The notes beneath the pieces were generated by a model, which saw only the letters and a list, made by a program, of their open reading frames with translations, made no database searches and was not told the DNA's origin. From assembly GCF_000246855.1 (NCBI RefSeq), contig NC_016609.1:8010744-8074743 (forward strand): a stretch of DNA of 64,000 nucleotides, read 5' to 3'. Shown piece after piece: positions 23,186 through 30,069 of this stretch. How positions within the stretch are numbered: the first letter of the stretch is position 1; each line of letters starts with the position of its first letter. The stretch is from Niastella koreensis GR20-10. Its GTDB lineage: Bacteria > Bacteroidota > Bacteroidia > Chitinophagales > Chitinophagaceae. Position numbers and translations under genes: made by a program.

Positions 23186-23818
23186 ATGGAATTAAGCACA
23201 ATACCCCTCGCGTTCCCCGCATTTGAAAAAGATTTGCAACAGGAAATACAGGAGCAGGGCGAGGTCCGGTTCTTTAAAACCGACGAGCAACTGATGCGCA
23301 CCGGCCAGTATTTCCGTTCAACCATGCTGATCCTGAACGGGCTGGTAAAAATTTACCGGGAAGACGATGACGGCAATGAGTTTTTTATGTACTACCTGCA
23401 ACCGGGTCAGGCATGCGCCTTATCAATGGTGTGTGCGGCAGAACATAAAAAAAGCGCCATTATGGCAAAAGCGGTAAAGGACACGGAAATTATTGCCATT
23501 CCCCTGGAGTATATGGAAGAATGGATGGGAAAATACAAAAGTTGGAGCCAGTTTGTAATTACTACCTATCGTTCCCGTTTTGAAGAACTGCTGAGCACCA
23601 TCGATCATATTGCGTTCCGCGGTATGGACGAGCGCCTGGAATTCTACCTGAAAAAACACCAGGAAACGCTTGGGACAAACCTCATTCCGCTCAATCACCA
23701 GGAAATTGCCAATGAGCTCAATTCATCGCGGGAAGTTATTTCACGCCTGCTTAAAAAAATGGAACAATTCGGCAAGGTAAAGCTCAACCGGAACGCTATT
23801 GAAATTATTCAATTGTAG
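23186..23818 (+). CDS. Crp/Fnr family transcription regulator of the sulfur locus
   Basis: The ATG at 23186 gives 210 residues. The N-terminal cyclic-nucleotide-binding-like jelly roll runs to about residue 120 (MRTGQYFRSTMLILNGLVKIYRED, MYYLQPGQACALSMVC), then the long dimer helix and the C-terminal winged HTH. The recognition helix reads SSREVISRLLKKM, with Arg and Glu followed by Arg four residues after the Glu, as in E. coli Crp (RE...R), suiting a GTGA half-site. Cysteines in CALSMVC could sense redox or sulfur species, but no Fe-S cluster motif is evident. It sits immediately upstream of tauE with a GTGA-N6-TCAC box between, so local control of the sulfur genes is likely. Confidence 0.92.
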   Translation: MELSTIPLAFPAFEKDLQQEIQEQGEVRFFKTDEQLMRTGQYFRSTMLILNGLVKIYREDDDGNEFFMYYLQPGQACALSMVCAAEHKKSAIMAKAVKDTEIIAIPLEYMEEWMGKYKSWSQFVITTYRSRFEELLSTIDHIAFRGMDERLEFYLKKHQETLGTNLIPLNHQEIANELNSSREVISRLLKKMEQFGKVKLNRNAIEIIQL

Positions 23819-23942
23819 TTGAAATATCTTAAAGGGTATTAAACAATTCACTTCATTCATTAGAAAACATTTTCTATAACGCTGTTTTTGTAAGCGTACT
23901 TCTTTATTCAACAAAAACATATTTGACCAGCATCTTCCTTAG

Positions 23943-23958
23943 TGTGATATTCGTCACC
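23943..23958. promoter_or_regulatory. Crp-like operator TGTGA-N6-TCACC upstream of the sulfur genes
   Basis: GTGA (23944-23947), six bases, TCAC (23954-23957): a perfect 4+4 palindrome with Crp spacing, 69 bases before the TauE/SafE start codon and 125 bases after the Crp/Fnr gene. The regulator has the residues that in Crp contact GTGA. This is the best candidate binding site for it. Confidence 0.55.
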
Positions 23959-24026
23959 TATCGGGTTTTTTATTTGCCGCATCTTCACCGCTCTGTAGTT
24001 GTTGTTTTACTGAATTATTTATTTAA

Positions 24027-24821
24027 ATGGAAATAGCCGGTTATTTAGCAGCCGTTTTAATTGGTGTATCATTAGGGTTAATAGGTGGAGGTGGATCGAT
24101 CCTGACCGTACCGGTATTTGTGTACCTGTTGCACGTACACCCGGTACTGGCCACCACGTATTCGTTATTTGTGGTAGGCAGTTGCAGCCTGGTGGGCAGC
24201 GTGCGTTCCTACTATAAAAGACTCATCGATTTTCAGGTAGTATTGTACTTCGGACTGCCCTCGCTGTTATCGGTATTTGTTGTACGGCGGTTTGTGCTGC
24301 CCATGATCCCCGATCATTTATTTACCATTGGTGAACTTGTTGTTGACAAAGGTGTTTTCTTAATGGTGTTGTTTGCCTTATTAATGCTGGCAGCTGCTGC
24401 CTCCATGATACAATCAGGCGCCAAACCACTGGCGCCTGGTGTTCCCAAAGAACGAAAAACCGGCTTGCTGCTCCAGGGGTTACTGGTAGGCGCGGTTACC
24501 GGTTTACTGGGTGCGGGCGGCGGTTTTTTGATTATCCCGTCACTGGTATTGATCAGCAGATTACCGATGAAAATGGCGGTGGGTTCATCCCTCACCATTA
24601 TGGCCATCAGTTCATTCTTTGGGTTTTTCAGCACATTGTCGCACTACACAATAAACTGGTCGCAATTGTTGTTGTTTACCGGCATTGCGGTATCGGGCAT
24701 TTTTGTGGGAACCGCATACTCAGATAAAATACCCGGCCAGGCATTAAAAAAAGGGTTTGGGTGGTTTGTGTTGGCAACCGGCCTGTTTATACTGGTGCGT
24801 GAACTGTTCTTCTTTAGTTAA
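24027..24821 (+). CDS. TauE/SafE family sulfite/organosulfonate-type exporter
   Basis: The protein has 264 residues with eight predicted membrane helices and the two-fold repeat of the TauE/SafE family: GVSLGLIGGGGSILTVPVFVYLLHV near the N-terminus and VGAVTGLLGAGGGFLIIPSLVLIS in the second half, both carrying the conserved G-G-G loop. The family exports sulfite, sulfoacetate or related anions. The next gene is a CstB-like persulfide dioxygenase that would produce sulfite or thiosulfate, so efflux of these products is the natural role. TauE beside cstB also occurs in the staphylococcal cst operon. Confidence 0.92.
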   Translation: MEIAGYLAAVLIGVSLGLIGGGGSILTVPVFVYLLHVHPVLATTYSLFVVGSCSLVGSVRSYYKRLIDFQVVLYFGLPSLLSVFVVRRFVLPMIPDHLFTIGELVVDKGVFLMVLFALLMLAAAASMIQSGAKPLAPGVPKERKTGLLLQGLLVGAVTGLLGAGGGFLIIPSLVLISRLPMKMAVGSSLTIMAISSFFGFFSTLSHYTINWSQLLLFTGIAVSGIFVGTAYSDKIPGQALKKGFGWFVLATGLFILVRELFFFS

Positions 24822-24912
24822 AGAAATGACGCTAAAAACGCTCTGTGATAAAAGTCATATTCTAAGAAAACCAATATTCAGAAATTACGTCGATTATTTA
24901 AACAGTATTGTT

Positions 24913-26331
24913 ATGAAGATAGAACAAATTTATACGGGTTGCCTGGCACAGGGAGCATATTACATCGAAAGCGAGGGTGAAGCAGTGGTGATTGATCCGT
25001 TGCGCGAAATAGATCCATATGTTCAAAAAGCCAATCGCAATGGCGCCACTATAAAGTATGTTTTTGAAACGCATTTTCATGCTGATTTTGTTTCAGGTCA
25101 CGTTGATCTGGCAAAGGAAACCGGTGCTACTATTGTATATGGCCCTACTGCTACGCCTTCGTTTGCTGCCCATATTGCTACCGATGGGGAAGTATTTAAA
25201 ATAGGCAACATTACTATTACTGTATTACATACGCCCGGTCATACTATGGAAAGCAGCTGCTACCTGTTGAAAGATGACCAGGGGAAAGAAGTTGGCTTGT
25301 TCAGCGGCGATACGTTGTTCATTGGTGATGTAGGCCGTCCAGACCTGGCGCAAAAAGCAAACCATATTACCCAGGAAGACCTGGCAGGTTTATTGTACGA
25401 TTCATTACGCAGTAAGATCATGCCGTTGCCTGATACACTGATTGTTTACCCTGCACATGGCGCTGGCAGTGCCTGTGGTAAGAACATGAGTAAAGAAACT
25501 ACTGATACGTTGGGGCATCAGAAACAAACGAACTACGCGCTGCGTGCCGACATGACCAAAGAAGAATTTATAAAAGAAGTGACGGAAGGATTAACAGCCC
25601 CGCCACAATATTTTCCGTTGAATGTGCAATTGAATAAGCAGGGCTATGAAAGCATCAATGAAGTGTTGAAAAAAGGTACGCATCCATTAGGCGTAGAAGC
25701 GTTTGAAGCAGCTGCTAATGAAACCGATGCGATTATTCTCGATACCAGAGACCCGCAAACATTTGGCAAAGGCTTTATTCCCAATTCAATCAACATTGGC
25801 ATCGATGGCAATTTCGCACCTTGGGTGGGCGCGCTTATTCCCGATATTAAACAAACCATATTAATTGTAGCGGAAGAAGGCCGCCAGGAAGAAGTGGTTA
25901 CCCGCCTGGCCCGGGTTGGTTATGATTATGCCATTGGTTTTTTGGAAGGCGGTATCGCTGCCTGGAAAAAAGCAGGGAAAGAAATTGATACCATCACTTC
26001 TATAACAGCAGCCGAGGTAGCAGCTATCCAGGAAGCCGATGCCAATATAAACGTGTTGGATGTACGTAAGCAAAGTGAATACGAAGCGGAGCATGTGAAA
26101 TGCGCCATTAATGCCAGCCTTGATTATATCAACGACAGTATGCAACAGGTTGATAAAAACAAAACGTACTATGTGCATTGTGCAGGCGGCTACCGTAGCA
26201 TGATCTTTATCTCTATCTTAAAAGCGCGCGGGTTCAACAATCTGATTGATATAAAAGGCGGATTTAAAGCCCTTAAAGAATCAGGAAAGTTTGCGATAAC
26301 AGATTATGTTTGCCCAAACACGATGTTGTAA
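24913..26331 (+). CDS. cstB: CstB-like persulfide dioxygenase-pseudorhodanese-rhodanese
   Basis: The ATG at 24913 gives 472 residues; the frame upstream overlaps tauE and is not coding. Three domains are visible. First, a metallo-beta-lactamase fold persulfide dioxygenase (1-240) with THFHADFVSGH and likely iron ligands His54, His110 and Asp133. Second, a rhodanese fold (about 262-355) in which the active-site loop reads VAEEGRQEE and lacks the Cys. Third, a rhodanese domain (about 365-460) with the active loop HCAGGYRS, Cys423. This is exactly the architecture of staphylococcal CstB, which turns low-molecular-weight persulfides into thiosulfate. The symbol is by architecture, not proven orthology. 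Confidence 0.9.
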   Translation: MKIEQIYTGCLAQGAYYIESEGEAVVIDPLREIDPYVQKANRNGATIKYVFETHFHADFVSGHVDLAKETGATIVYGPTATPSFAAHIATDGEVFKIGNITITVLHTPGHTMESSCYLLKDDQGKEVGLFSGDTLFIGDVGRPDLAQKANHITQEDLAGLLYDSLRSKIMPLPDTLIVYPAHGAGSACGKNMSKETTDTLGHQKQTNYALRADMTKEEFIKEVTEGLTAPPQYFPLNVQLNKQGYESINEVLKKGTHPLGVEAFEAAANETDAIILDTRDPQTFGKGFIPNSINIGIDGNFAPWVGALIPDIKQTILIVAEEGRQEEVVTRLARVGYDYAIGFLEGGIAAWKKAGKEIDTITSITAAEVAAIQEADANINVLDVRKQSEYEAEHVKCAINASLDYINDSMQQVDKNKTYYVHCAGGYRSMIFISILKARGFNNLIDIKGGFKALKESGKFAITDYVCPNTML

Positions 26332-26360
26332 CCACACCTCGAAAAAATTCATTAACTTAT

Positions 26361-26392
26361 AGCTGTGTGATTTATGTCGCACAGCTTTTTTT
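26361..26392 (+). terminator. Hairpin plus T-run after the cstB-like gene (also Crp-box-like)
   Basis: The stem AGCTGTG/CACAGCT is followed by seven T. The same bases read TGTGA-N6-TCGCA (26366-26381), one mismatch from a Crp-type box, 45 bases before the next gene. Either function, or both, is possible. Confidence 0.65.
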
Positions 26393-26426
26393 ATGAAACC
26401 ACCATATTTACAAAAAATTAGTCATC

Positions 26427-26996
26427 ATGCAATTTATGGAATGGATTAAACAGCCCTGGCCCTGGTACGTGGCAGGCCCGTTGATAGGGCTGTTGGTGCC
26501 GTTGCTGTTGATCATGGGTAATAAATCATTCGGGGTATCTTCGTCATTACGGCATATTTGTGCTGCGGTTATACCTGGTAATATTCCTTTTTTCAAATAC
26601 AACTGGCGCAAAGAAACCTGGAACCTGTTTTTTGTAACCGGTATTTTGCTGGGCGCCATCATTGCCACGCAATGGTTAAACAACGGTAAACCCATTGTAG
26701 TAAACCCAAAACTGATGAACGAACTGCAGCAATATAATATTCATAATTATGCCTCCATCGTTCCTGTAGATCTGTTTAACTGGCCAGCCTTATTAACGTT
26801 GCGCGGATTTATCTTACTGGTCTTTGGCGGATTCTTGGTAGGCTTTGGTACGCGCTATGCCGGAGGTTGTACTTCGGGGCACGCCATCATGGGCCTTTCC
26901 AATCTGCAATGGCCATCACTGGTAGCAACCTGTTGTTTTATGATCGGTGGTTTTATTACAGCCAATCTTATTTTACCAGCCATCTTAAACCTGTAA
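26427..26996 (+). CDS. YeeE/YedE (PmpA/TsuA-like) half-transporter, first half
   Basis: This integral membrane protein of 189 residues has about five helices. The family signature GTRYAGGCTSGHAIMGLSNLQ is near residue 141, with Cys148 corresponding to the conserved thiosulfate-relay cysteine of TsuA/YeeE. The family moves thiosulfate or sulfane sulfur across the inner membrane. The protein is about half the size of full YeeE and is followed 10 bases later by a second half carrying the other conserved cysteine, so the two probably form one transporter, like the PmpA/PmpB pairs. Confidence 0.9.
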   Translation: MQFMEWIKQPWPWYVAGPLIGLLVPLLLIMGNKSFGVSSSLRHICAAVIPGNIPFFKYNWRKETWNLFFVTGILLGAIIATQWLNNGKPIVVNPKLMNELQQYNIHNYASIVPVDLFNWPALLTLRGFILLVFGGFLVGFGTRYAGGCTSGHAIMGLSNLQWPSLVATCCFMIGGFITANLILPAILNL

Positions 26997-27006
26997 TGTA
27001 TTCACA

Positions 27007-27534
27007 ATGGAAACGAAAAACGTAATAACACAACCAACAATAGTAAAGGAAACCAATACCGATTTTGAAGTACGCTCGCTCGACACCATCTGCATCAACG
27101 AGTCGCGTATGGAACACTCGTGGTGGCACTCGTTAAAATATTTAATTGCCGGGTTGTTTTTTGGTATTCTGCTGGTTAAAGCCGAAGTGATCTCCTGGTT
27201 CCGTATTCAGGAAATGTTCCGCCTGCAAAGCTTTCATATGTACGGCGTAATTGGCAGCGCTGTAGTAACAGGCATCATTTCTGTGTGGTTCATTAAAAAA
27301 TTCAAGGTTAAAACAATATATGGCGAACCTATTGACCTGCATCCCAAGCAATTCAATAAAGGGCAGATCTATGGCGGATTACTATTTGGCGCCGGTTGGG
27401 CCATGACGGGTGCATGCCCCGGACCTTTGTATGCATTGATAGGAACGGGTGCTACCGTAATAATTATCACTTTATTAAGCGCCATTGCCGGCACCTGGAT
27501 TTATGGCTTGCTGCGCCAAAAACTCCCACATTAA
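27007..27534 (+). CDS. YeeE/YedE-like (DUF6691, PmpB-like) half-transporter, second half
   Basis: The protein has 175 residues: a soluble N-terminal segment of about 40 residues and then four or five membrane helices. The C-terminal signature KGQIYGGLLFGAGWAMTGACPGPLYALIGTG contains Cys137, matching the second conserved cysteine of YeeE/TsuA. It follows the first half by 10 bases and complements it. The predicted role is uptake or exchange of thiosulfate or persulfide. The N-terminal cytosolic extension (TICINESRMEHSW) is typical of the Bacteroidota version; its function is unknown. Confidence 0.88.
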   Translation: METKNVITQPTIVKETNTDFEVRSLDTICINESRMEHSWWHSLKYLIAGLFFGILLVKAEVISWFRIQEMFRLQSFHMYGVIGSAVVTGIISVWFIKKFKVKTIYGEPIDLHPKQFNKGQIYGGLLFGAGWAMTGACPGPLYALIGTGATVIIITLLSAIAGTWIYGLLRQKLPH

Positions 27535-27829
27535 TTTGGTGGCTACTTTAATATAAGTACCTTTAATACGGATTTAATCTGACTGATTATACAAACTACT
27601 TGAACAAAGGTCCCTACCTTATACCTGTCTTTATTATAAACCTAATCCTCTCAAACCCCAACCGTCAACATTCCACTGAATAACCACTGACGGGATTGTA
27701 ACACTGCGGATTTATTTGTGCCACTAAGGATGTTGCGATGCATTGTGCCTACTCCATGAACGGGTTGACAGGATAGTCTATTCCAGACTGTTCAGTCGTT
27801 CTATTTCTTTAACTAAATATCGACTGTAT

Positions 27830-28525
27830 ATGCAAACCAACAATTCAAATGCAGCATCCCGTCGCGACTTTTTAGGAAAGCTCGCTGCGGGCGCAGTTGC
27901 AATGGGTACTGTTTCCCTGGCTCCTTTTGCCGCACAGGCCATGCCTGAAGCAGCTGATCACGAATATGCAGATGCTGATGAGTGGTTCAATAAGATAAAA
28001 GGCAAACACCGCATTGTGTTTGATGCTACACAACCGCATGAAATGATGCCCTTTGCCTGGCCAAAGGTTTTTTTATTAACGAATGCCGCCACCGGTACGC
28101 CTGAAAAGGACTGCAGTGCTGTGGTAGTACTTCGCCACGATGCAGTTGGGTATGCCCTGCAAAACGAAATGTGGGAAAAATACAAACTCGGCGAACTGTT
28201 TAAAGCAAATGATCCGCTTACAAAAGCACCTGCTACCCGTAACCCCTTCTGGAAACCAAAAGACGGTGATTTTAAAATACCCGGTATAGGCAATGTGCCA
28301 ATAGGTATTAATCAACTGCAGGATAGTGGGGTTATGTTCTGCGCCTGCGAAATGGCCATAACTGTTTTTAGTGCCGTAGCCGCAGACATGATGAAAATGG
28401 ATGCTGCAGCTGTGAAAAAAGAATGGCTGGGCGCCGTGCTGCCAAACATCCAGGTAGTGCCATCCGGGGTTTGGGCATTAGGCCGCGCCCAGGAACATGG
28501 CTGCACCTATTGCTTTGCCGGTTAG
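27830..28525 (+). CDS. Tat-exported DsrE-like protein with C-terminal cysteine pairs
   Basis: The ATG at 27830 gives 231 residues with a twin-arginine leader (SRRDFLGKLAAGAVAMG, Arg11-Arg12) and an Ala-x-Ala site near 36. The mature part matches the DsrE/DsrF order of elements: RIVFDATQP, a helix, VVVLRHDAVGYAL, GVMFCACEM and a final VVPSGVWALGRAQEHGCTYC. Cysteines come in pairs, 171/173 and 225/228, which may bind metal or form disulfide/persulfide. Export by Tat means folding, perhaps with cofactor, before transport. In this locus it may carry sulfane sulfur in the periplasm; that is inference. Confidence 0.8.
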   Translation: MQTNNSNAASRRDFLGKLAAGAVAMGTVSLAPFAAQAMPEAADHEYADADEWFNKIKGKHRIVFDATQPHEMMPFAWPKVFLLTNAATGTPEKDCSAVVVLRHDAVGYALQNEMWEKYKLGELFKANDPLTKAPATRNPFWKPKDGDFKIPGIGNVPIGINQLQDSGVMFCACEMAITVFSAVAADMMKMDAAAVKKEWLGAVLPNIQVVPSGVWALGRAQEHGCTYCFAG

Positions 28526-28583
28526 GCGAAGCTGTTGAGTGAAAGAATCCCCTTTTCTTAACCCCGTCTATTATACAGGTACC

Positions 28584-28627
28584 ATGTTGCATCCCGATAC
28601 ATCGGGATGCAACATTTACTTTTTTAA
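28584..28627 (+). terminator. Strong intrinsic terminator between the DsrE-like and TsdA-like genes
   Basis: A perfect 15-base stem (28584-28598 with 28601-28615) with a 2-base loop is followed by TTTACTTTTTT. It separates the transporter/DsrE unit from the cytochrome unit. Confidence 0.9.
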
Positions 28628-28645
28628 CGATCTGTTTGTAATATC

Positions 28646-29629
28646 ATGAACCGGAATTTGGTAATTGGATTATTAGCGATAGGAGTGCCTGTTGCCATTT
28701 GGTTGAATGTTAAATACCGCACTACCGATGGCATCCCGAAAAAAGCAACCGCGTTGGCTTCAGCTGCACCCGAAATGCCCTGGCAGGCGCCTGATAGCAA
28801 TAGTATACCTAACACTGCAGCAGGTGAACTGGTACGTTATGGCCGCGATCTCATTGCCCATACTTCCCAATACCTGGGACCCAGGGGAACAGTAGCGCAT
28901 ATCTCCAATGGTATGAACTGCCAGAACTGTCACCTGGCCGCCGGCACCAGGCCCTGGGGTAATAACTACAGCGCCGTAGCCTCCACCTATCCCAAATACC
29001 GCGATCGCAGCGGTACCATAGAATCTATTGAAAAAAGAGTGAACGATTGCCTGGAAAGAAGCCTCAATGGAAAAGCACTGGATAGCAACAGCCACGAAAT
29101 GCAGGCTATAGTAGCCTACATGCATTGGCTGGGAACCGGGGTGGCGAAAGGCAAAAAGCCATTGGGTTCGGGCATTAAAACATTGAAGAACCTCGACCGG
29201 CCGGCAGACCCCGAAAAGGGGAAAATCGTATTCATCGAAAAGTGCAAGGCCTGCCATGGCGCCGGTGGCGAAGGTATGCCCGATCCCGTCAATGGTACAG
29301 GTTATTTATATCCACCATTATGGGGAACCGAAAGTTACAATATCGGGGCCGGGTTGTTCCGCTTATCGCGGATGGCTGGTTATGTAAAAGACAATATGCC
29401 ATTTGGGGCTGCATATGACAAAGCTCAATTAACAGATGAACAGGCATGGGATGTGGCCGCCTTTATTAATTCCCAGCCGCGTCCAAATAAAGACCTGTCG
29501 AAGGACTGGCCACATATAGATGCCAAACCCTTCGATTATCCTTTTGGTCCGTATGCAGATAGTTTCTCCGCCCAACAACATAAGTATGGTCCATACAATC
29601 CTATAGCACAAGCTGCCAGGAAAAAGTAA
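28646..29629 (+). CDS. tsdA: TsdA-like thiosulfate dehydrogenase (di-haem cytochrome c)
   Basis: The protein has 327 residues with an N-terminal uncleaved anchor or signal (about 4-22). Two cytochrome c domains carry CQNCH (92-96) and CKACH (200-204). Between them the segment YPKYRDRSGTIESIEKRVND is followed by Cys135 in a LERSLNGK context, matching the TsdA family, where this Cys is the unusual axial ligand of haem 1. TsdA oxidises two thiosulfates to tetrathionate, or works in reverse, in the periplasm. Electrons could pass to a quinol or terminal oxidase; haem A synthase lies 600 bases downstream. Direction is not decidable from sequence. Confidence 0.82.
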   Translation: MNRNLVIGLLAIGVPVAIWLNVKYRTTDGIPKKATALASAAPEMPWQAPDSNSIPNTAAGELVRYGRDLIAHTSQYLGPRGTVAHISNGMNCQNCHLAAGTRPWGNNYSAVASTYPKYRDRSGTIESIEKRVNDCLERSLNGKALDSNSHEMQAIVAYMHWLGTGVAKGKKPLGSGIKTLKNLDRPADPEKGKIVFIEKCKACHGAGGEGMPDPVNGTGYLYPPLWGTESYNIGAGLFRLSRMAGYVKDNMPFGAAYDKAQLTDEQAWDVAAFINSQPRPNKDLSKDWPHIDAKPFDYPFGPYADSFSAQQHKYGPYNPIAQAARKK

Positions 29630-29652
29630 ACTTCATTATTAAATCAACTTTT

Positions 29653-30069
29653 ATGTACACCAATAAGCTGTTGATCGTTGCGCTGGCAGTAATGCCGGCT
29701 TTTGCCTTTACACAAACTGTCCCCTATAAAGTAGTCTTTGATATTACCAGCAGCGATACCGCTGCCCAAAAAGCCGTGATAAGGCAAATGCGCGGCATCT
29801 CACAGTCCAGGCCAGACGCCCAGTTGGAGGTAGCCATTTATGGCGAAGCACTGCCTATGGTTATGAAAGGCAAATCGATCATTGCCGATGCCATCCAGGA
29901 ATTAAGCAGCAGCAAAAAAGCCAGTTTTAAAGTATGCGCCGCCACCATGAAACGCAACAACATCGATAAGAGCCAGTTGTTGGCCGGGGTAGATGTAGTG
30001 CCCGACGCCATTTTTGAAATTGTGACAAAGCAACATGAGGGGTGGGGTTACATTAAAGTAGCACAGTAA
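29653..30069 (+). CDS. Secreted DsrE family protein
   Basis: The precursor has 138 residues with a signal peptide (about 1-20). The mature protein has the DsrE fold order: YKVVFDITSSDTAAQKAVIRQMRGI, AQLEVAIYGEALPMVMKG, SFKVCAATMKRNNI with conserved Cys95, then VVPDAIFEIVTKQHEGWGYIKV. The Cys is at the position used by DsrE/TusD relatives for sulfane sulfur. It starts 23 bases after the tsdA-like gene, so both are probably co-transcribed. It likely binds or transfers sulfur in the periplasm. Confidence 0.88.
   Translation: MYTNKLLIVALAVMPAFAFTQTVPYKVVFDITSSDTAAQKAVIRQMRGISQSRPDAQLEVAIYGEALPMVMKGKSIIADAIQELSSSKKASFKVCAATMKRNNIDKSQLLAGVDVVPDAIFEIVTKQHEGWGYIKVAQ

Follow-up and report, generated by a model that had tools for sequence, protein, structure and literature searches.

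The locus described here lies in Niastella koreensis GR20-10, within a stretch of 64,000 nucleotides (the window; bases 8010744–8074743 of the single 9,033,684-base contig NC_016609.1), the numbering of which is used for all its features. An earlier note had read eight consecutive same-strand genes at 23186–30069 as a sulfur locus. All eight open reading frames were confirmed on the + strand at these coordinates, and the sulfur theme holds; most of the gene names were borne out by Pfam, NCBIfam or PDB matches, with the exception of "Tat-DsrE", which lacks a Pfam match and is DsrE-like by profile–profile comparison alone. The eight genes are two separable modules placed side by side. Module 1 (23186–27534) contains a Crp/Fnr regulator, TauE, a CstB-type persulfide dioxygenase–rhodanese and the half-transporters PmpA and PmpB; module 2 (27830–30069) contains a Tat-exported protein, here called TatP, a TsdA-type dihaem cytochrome and a secreted DsrE protein. 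What was observed directly is the gene content, the architecture of the domains, and the conservation of catalytic residues, neighbourhoods and operator-like sites; the two modules may belong to one flow of sulfur.

In module 2, the middle gene (28646..29629, + strand) is predicted to encode a TsdA-type dihaem thiosulfate dehydrogenase/tetrathionate reductase (PDB 4wqc, 1.2e-46). Membership of this family was assigned from two CXXCH haem sites, the Cys ligand of haem 1 and the similarity to solved TsdA; the haem sites (C92–H96 and C200–H204), the Cys135 ligand position and Met251 are invariant in 19/19 aligned sequences. Met251 is preceded by Asn, a residue shared with PDB 4wqc; 4wq7 has Lys at this position. 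The last gene (29653..30069, + strand) encodes a single-domain protein of the DsrE family (PF02635, 7.2e-7, 29.8 bits against a cut-off of 22.7; PDB 1l1s, 1e-11), the secretion signal of which was recognised by eye. Its Cys95 is invariant in 16/16 aligned sequences, and the gene is the sole PF02635 match of the genome.

TatP (27830..28525, + strand; 231 residues) carries a Tat signal (TIGR01409, 3.4e-5) and is a putative partner of TsdA. It gave no Pfam match above threshold, PF02635 included, and is therefore filed as DsrE-like and not as DsrE. When the TatP and DsrE profiles were compared with hhalign, a C-terminal region of 57 columns was aligned (Prob 93.5, E 2.3e-7), by which TatP Cys173 is set on the invariant Cys95 of DsrE. 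Cys173 and Cys225 are present in all of the 26 members aligned, and Cys228 in nearly all; Cys225 and Cys228 make up a C-terminal CxxC. Nothing significant was obtained when the PDB was searched with the TatP sequence, and the TatP profile gave two DsrE chains there as weak matches (E about 2).

The surroundings of TsdA were surveyed in 395 evenly sampled Bacteroidota genomes. A gene was counted as TsdA at E < 1e-80, which gave 46 loci in 44 genomes; the wider tally of 229/395 genomes at E ≤ 0.001, which takes in many short and weak matches, was not used. Within flanks that reached at most 8 kb to either side of 45 TsdA loci (the window's own left out), DsrE was found in 18 loci, PmpA, PmpB and an OprD-like porin in 14 each, CstB in 13, rhodanese and TauE in 12 each, a SoxB-like gene in 9, TatP in 5 and CRP in 3. 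For PmpB about 0.09 loci would be expected by chance (a rough estimate) against the 14 found in several families, so that the clustering of PmpB with TsdA is beyond chance. DsrE is the commonest direct neighbour of TsdA, with 12 loci in which it lies within 300 bases on the same strand. Taken together, the recurring genes suggest a route like the Erythrobacter flavus pathway discussed below.

The SoxB-like protein of one related cluster (L085) scored 258.5 bits with TIGR04486, against a cut-off of 550 bits, and matched the SoxB structure PDB 2wdc at 2.1e-29. N. koreensis carries a homologue of it (E 2.5e-181) as an orphan at C1:5745574-5747283 (L119:8806-10716). A strong match (E ≤ 1e-179) to such a protein was present in 14/44 TsdA genomes, N. 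koreensis included, and in 25/44 when 1e-10 was applied. The orphan gene could complete a tetrathionate route. By eye, its product has a Tat-like signal; the 20 kb around it gave no match to the sulfur queries other than a weak TlpA-like one. SoxY (PF13501), the carrier of the classical Sox system, was matched in 0/44 TsdA genomes, and in no control genome either.

TatP and TsdA are associated across several phyla. In 19 of 25 named TatP loci TsdA lies within 1 kb, in either orientation, and one further locus (L018) ends in a TsdA fragment at the contig end. These loci belong to Chitinophagaceae, other Bacteroidota, five Ignavibacteriae (L018 among them) and one Rubricoccaceae; the closest named relatives of the window locus are Niastella species. 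In the five Ignavibacteriae loci PmpA/B also adjoins TatP, with the TsdA gene or fragment. TatP was found in 8/395 genomes of the phylum sample, all 8 of them among the 44 with TsdA (P 1.3e-8), and adjoins TsdA in 6 of the 8; genome G107, in which the match (E 1.2e-4) spans only positions 4–68 in the signal region, was left out of this count. TatP is predicted to be a periplasmic sulfur-carrier partner of TsdA. Two queries for TatP on plasmids gave no match. The idea that TatP replaces SoxB, which arose because the TatP flanks retrieved from the phylum sample showed no SoxB-like gene, was not upheld: it is unproven, N. koreensis has both genes, and Fisher's test gave p = 0.40.

TatP is also related to NF052225, a model named "thiosulfate dehydrogenase" (25.3 bits, E 8.2e-6; equivalog cut-off 300 bits, missed). 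The likeness consists of remote homology across the C-terminal half and a similar size; the C-terminal CxxC of TatP, in contrast, was not seen in the 12 Gemmatimonadota relatives that were read. One Gemmatimonadota protein (L122:907-1614), the gene of which adjoins a TsdA gene, is recognised by the NF052225 model (2.9e-16) as well as by the TatP profile (136.8 bits). NF052225-like proteins occur in 41/101 Gemmatimonadota genomes, sometimes several in each, with 0/101 genomes above the cut-off. Among the 12 loci that scored best of more than 60 matches, 7 have a TsdA match in their flanks, at a place separate from the TatP-like one. Up to 4–5 NF052225-like, TatP-related matches each were noted in Gemmatimonadota genomes such as G442, G441 and G488. 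The link between TatP and NF052225 appears to be a remote one, at superfamily level, and is no proof that TatP oxidises thiosulfate. The thiosulfate dehydrogenase (TSD) of A. ferrooxidans is described in PMC6335251.

Module 1 opens, behind its regulator, with the gene of a TauE/SafE-family permease (24027..24821, + strand; PF01925, 2.2e-35), a putative exporter of sulfite or another sulfo-anion. It is followed by the CstB-type enzyme (24913..26331, + strand; PF00753, PF00581), in which a metallo-beta-lactamase (MBL) domain precedes a middle and a C-terminal rhodanese, and which aligns almost end to end with PDB 3tp9 (1.1e-65) and 3r2u (8.5e-64). Cys188, after the MBL domain, and Cys423, in the last rhodanese, align with cysteines of 3r2u; the middle rhodanese region has no Cys between residues 189 and 396. 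Judged by its architecture and by both functional cysteines, the MBL–rhodanese protein has the CstB arrangement. The half YeeE transporters comprise a PmpA-like protein, which corresponds to the C-terminal half and contains Cys148 (26427..26996, + strand; PF04143; NF052577 positions 273–326 of 330), and a PmpB-like DUF6691 protein, which corresponds to the N-terminal half and contains Cys137 (27007..27534, + strand; PF20398; NF052577 positions 4–109 of 330). They match opposite halves of the TsuA model with one Cys each, the equivalence of these cysteines being judged by motif and unaligned. In PMC11582611, PmpA and PmpB are described as YeeE halves that match opposite halves of TsuA and each keep a cysteine. 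In the phylum sample CstB (E ≤ 1e-60) was found in 214/395 genomes and DUF6691/PmpB in 179/395, 165 of these above the cut-off. The N. koreensis genome contains a second CRP–TauE–CstB–rhodanese locus (L113), without PmpAB. A third CstB paralogue (49% identity; L114:7597-9455) stands in a BigR-like arrangement behind a small regulator that is ArsR-type by eye.

The first gene of the locus (23186..23818, + strand) encodes a Crp/Fnr-type regulator of 210 residues (PF00027, 4.8e-10; PF13545) with Cys77, Cys83 and a recognition helix SREVISR, which we take to be similar to that of E. coli CRP. With 46.2 bits against the 266 of the E. coli CRP equivalog, the protein fails as a cAMP-type CRP. The pocket of cAMP-type CRP is marked by a Gly-Glu motif; the corresponding region here reads QACALSMVC and lacks it, and the two cysteines presumably sit where cyclic-nucleotide receptors carry the pocket motif. 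Cys77 is present in 16/16 and Cys83 in 12/16 aligned CRPs of sulfur clusters, the independent number being smaller than 16 because five are from Niastella and some of the others are near-identical. Four other CRP homologues were detected in the genome, of which the L113 paralogue has both cysteines and the other three have neither. The regulator is predicted to be a thiol-based sulfane-sulfur sensor; a narrow literature search for such a cysteine-bearing Crp/Fnr sensor returned no matching paper.

Putative sites for this regulator were found in module 1. Exact GTGA-N6-TCAC occurs twice in the window, once upstream of tauE (GTGATATTCGTCAC, 23944..23957); a site with one mismatch lies upstream of cstB (24845..24858), and a third, likewise with one mismatch, lies before pmpA (26367) inside a terminator stem. 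All three are conserved in 5/5 Niastella, and the conservation of the third could stem from the terminator that it overlaps. In the 394 bases before tauE, cstB and pmpA, 3 sites with up to one mismatch were found against 0.23 expected at window density, a count that is no blind test because the tauE site had been noticed before counting. At L113 exact sites precede both tauE and cstB; one-mismatch sites lie between CRP and TauE at L086 and L088, and none was found between these genes at L085. The arrangement of the CRP clusters differs: the order is CRP–TauE–PmpAB–CstB at L086 and L088, and TauE is missing from L116 and L117.

The earlier note had placed all eight genes in one run under the Crp/Fnr protein. 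This could not be sustained for tatP–tsdA–dsrE, as the putative sites are in module 1 alone, and a single contiguous regulon was rejected. The note's two internal terminators fared unevenly. The hairpin at 26361..26386 (+ strand), which overlaps the 26367 site, is intrinsic-terminator-like, with a T-run conserved in 5/5 Niastella. That between tatP and tsdA (28584..28615, + strand) is a conserved intercistronic hairpin in the five Niastella; of its 20 predicted pairs, 4 show changes on both sides and 6 are broken or gapped. Its T-run is limited to N. koreensis, which weakens the terminator reading, and at least three transcripts are therefore not established; the hairpin may be an element of mRNA processing or stability. 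As to the conservation of neighbours, which the note had proposed as a check, subsets recur (PmpA/B–TsdA, TsdA–DsrE, TatP–TsdA, and CRP with TauE, CstB or PmpAB), and the full set does not extend beyond five Niastella loci. Among the loci examined, the complete eight genes were present only in the window and in L002–L005, all of which are Niastella or a Niastella metagenome-assembled genome. In other genomes the interval between RNase HII and haem A synthase holds only parts of the set: CRP–CstB–thioredoxin–PmpAB without tsdA in G253 (L116), tsdA–tatP–dsrE without module 1 in G033 (L074), and TauE–TatP–TsdA in Paraflavitalea (L006). In G300 (L117), CRP–CstB–PmpAB lies beside RNase HII without tsdA, which is found elsewhere in that genome (L072).

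Two further TsdA contexts were noted in passing. In seven loci of seven genomes (L104–L110) a divergent TsdA occurs with a gene for an arylsulfotransferase-like protein (PF05935 in L107, the one locus tested) and with two large conserved genes that by eye resemble a SusC/SusD pair. In six loci (L076, L081, L083, L084, L086 and L088) a periplasmic binding protein gene lies near TsdA; the L086 protein, the one tested, gave PF13531 and weak thiosulfate- and molybdate-binding matches.

We lean, without strong conviction, towards a reading in which both modules act in one flow, from periplasmic TsdA, TatP and DsrE to the membrane and cytoplasmic proteins of module 1. The reactions, the direction of TsdA, the carrier role of TatP and DsrE, the transported substrate and the signal of the regulator are our proposals. 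In the periplasm, TsdA would convert two thiosulfates into tetrathionate (or the reverse) and exchange electrons with the respiratory chain. The cysteines of TatP and DsrE would take the thiosulfonate or sulfane group from tetrathionate or from TsdA and hand the sulfane sulfur on, PmpA/PmpB would import it (or thiosulfate), CstB would form sulfite or thiosulfate by oxidising the persulfide that results, and TauE would export the product. The cysteine-based Crp/Fnr protein would turn module 1 on as sulfane sulfur accumulates.

Several observations weigh against this flow, the strongest being modularity and separate putative regulation, by which the modules may simply be neighbours. The 415 bases upstream of tatP and tsdA yielded no GTGA-N6-TCAC-like site. 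A similar CRP was present in 15 of 36 CstB/TauE-type loci, a non-random survey of 20 of the best-scoring CstB matches and 16 loci fetched earlier, in which CRPs were identified by similarity to the window's own regulator. The relationship of TatP to DsrE is confined to the C-terminal third. TsdA is not nearby in 5/25 TatP loci: L008, L013 and every one of the three that carry the label Gemmatimonadetes (L023, whose contig is 3.3 kb long, L025 and L026). The genome of L008 also has another TatP gene, which adjoins TsdA and DsrE. TatP and TsdA lie apart in 2/8 TatP genomes of the phylum sample, and TatP is missing from 36/44 TsdA genomes, so that it must be dispensable for TsdA. A search of this genome for TusA, the usual cytoplasmic sulfur acceptor, found none, while 11/14 controls matched; a rhodanese domain would therefore have to serve as acceptor. 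In Hyphomicrobium, pmpAB is reported not to be regulated by thiosulfate, and the authors saw nothing that would point to a part in sulfur oxidation (PMC11582611).

In a tentative alternative, a lesser possibility that we nevertheless take seriously, the modules have unrelated functions without shared flux, module 1 serving housekeeping persulfide detoxification (bigR/cst-like) and module 2 tetrathionate or thiosulfate respiration. It is consistent with the full combination being seen in Niastella alone, with the partial sets of G253 and G300 (no tsdA at the CRP–CstB–PmpAB genes) and the converse in G033, and with the confinement of operator-like sites to module 1; the 14/45 loci of several families in which PmpA/B lies near TsdA, and the five Ignavibacteriae loci in which it adjoins TatP and a TsdA gene or fragment, argue for a connection. 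It is unlikely that TatP oxidises thiosulfate itself, in the manner of the A. ferrooxidans TSD, with TsdA as its electron acceptor. All scores with NF052225 are far under 300 bits (25.3 for the window protein, 62.9 for the best relative seen), NF052225-like proteins are several paralogues in many genomes, which makes a shared function uncertain, and NF052225 is only probably the A. ferrooxidans TSD (AFE_0042), which we presume from name and length; the 12/26 TatP members that match NF052225 at E ≤ 0.001 and the Gemmatimonadota intermediate that matches both families point the other way. We regard it as equally improbable that the cluster runs reductively, with TsdA as a tetrathionate reductase and the other genes handling the released thiosulfate and persulfide. 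The Asn before Met251 would suit such a direction, since it is shared with PDB 4wqc and not with the Lys of 4wq7; by its name we take 4wqc to be an Asn variant, and C. jejuni TsdA presumably has a similar residue. TsdA can be bifunctional (PMC7608252). Campylobacter TsdA is reportedly so. CstB-type enzymes, however, require oxygen, and the SoxB-like and DsrE neighbours in relatives suit oxidation.

Returning to the single flow, a wider form of it is doubtful, if somewhat less so than the enzymatic and reductive readings. TatP would then stand for a class so far unrecognised, of Tat-exported carriers of thiosulfate or sulfane that are DsrE-type (with Cys173 and the C-terminal CxxC), serve TsdA in several phyla and feed PmpA/PmpB; the haem-free thiosulfate dehydrogenase of Acidithiobacillus would be a stand-alone member of the wider family, and module 1 would be governed by a new class of Crp/Fnr sulfane-sulfur sensors, in which a CX5C thiol switch occupies what was once the cAMP pocket.

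The enzymes taken singly, and the pathway in outline, are already known. With Allochromatium vinosum TsdA (PDB 4wqc, which we take to be from this organism, and others) the present protein shares the dihaem architecture and the positions of the Cys ligand and Met; unlike there, tatP and dsrE adjoin tsdA, and no TsdB-like cytochrome does. The MBL–rhodanese dioxygenase and TauE-type exporter recall bigR/cst-type sulfane-sulfur detoxification operons, from which module 1 differs in that a Crp/Fnr protein with CX5C replaces the ArsR/CsoR repressor and a TsdA module adjoins. The two half YeeE transporters extend this likeness to operons of that type with PmpA/PmpB (PMC11582611). In Erythrobacter flavus 21-3 a TsdA–SoxB–SdoA/B thiosulfate pathway has been described, and the same source already notes tsdA with soxB in Bacteroidetes (PMC7608252). 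Common to both are TsdA and an MBL-type sulfur/persulfide dioxygenase, with a SoxB-like gene in 9/45 related Bacteroidota TsdA loci; in Niastella, by contrast, the SoxB-like gene is an orphan elsewhere (the related L085 protein being below the SoxB cut-off), and PmpA/B, TatP and DsrE are added. The role proposed for TatP and DsrE is modelled on the cysteine chemistry of Metallosphaera cuprina DsrE3A, in which a Cys-S-thiosulfonate is formed with tetrathionate (PMC4175335). DsrE3A is a partner of TusA and is assigned to the cytoplasm, whereas TatP and DsrE are exported and the Niastella genome yielded no TusA. Among the literature matches listed, so far as their texts were available, there was no description of a DsrE-type partner of TsdA or of this Bacteroidota gene cluster; the TsdA neighbourhood with PmpA/B and DsrE, the cross-phylum association of TatP with TsdA and the cysteine-bearing Crp/Fnr protein are unreported there. 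Three things go beyond the earlier note: the kinship of TatP with NF052225, the presence of a SoxB-like gene in related clusters, and the cysteine in the regulator pocket.

Common as heterotrophs in soils and sediments, Bacteroidota are rarely regarded as metabolisers of thiosulfate. The recurring TsdA–PmpAB–CstB–SoxB/DsrE neighbourhood gives them a concrete, testable route; should the regulator be confirmed, Crp/Fnr proteins would join the known kinds of sulfane-sulfur sensor.

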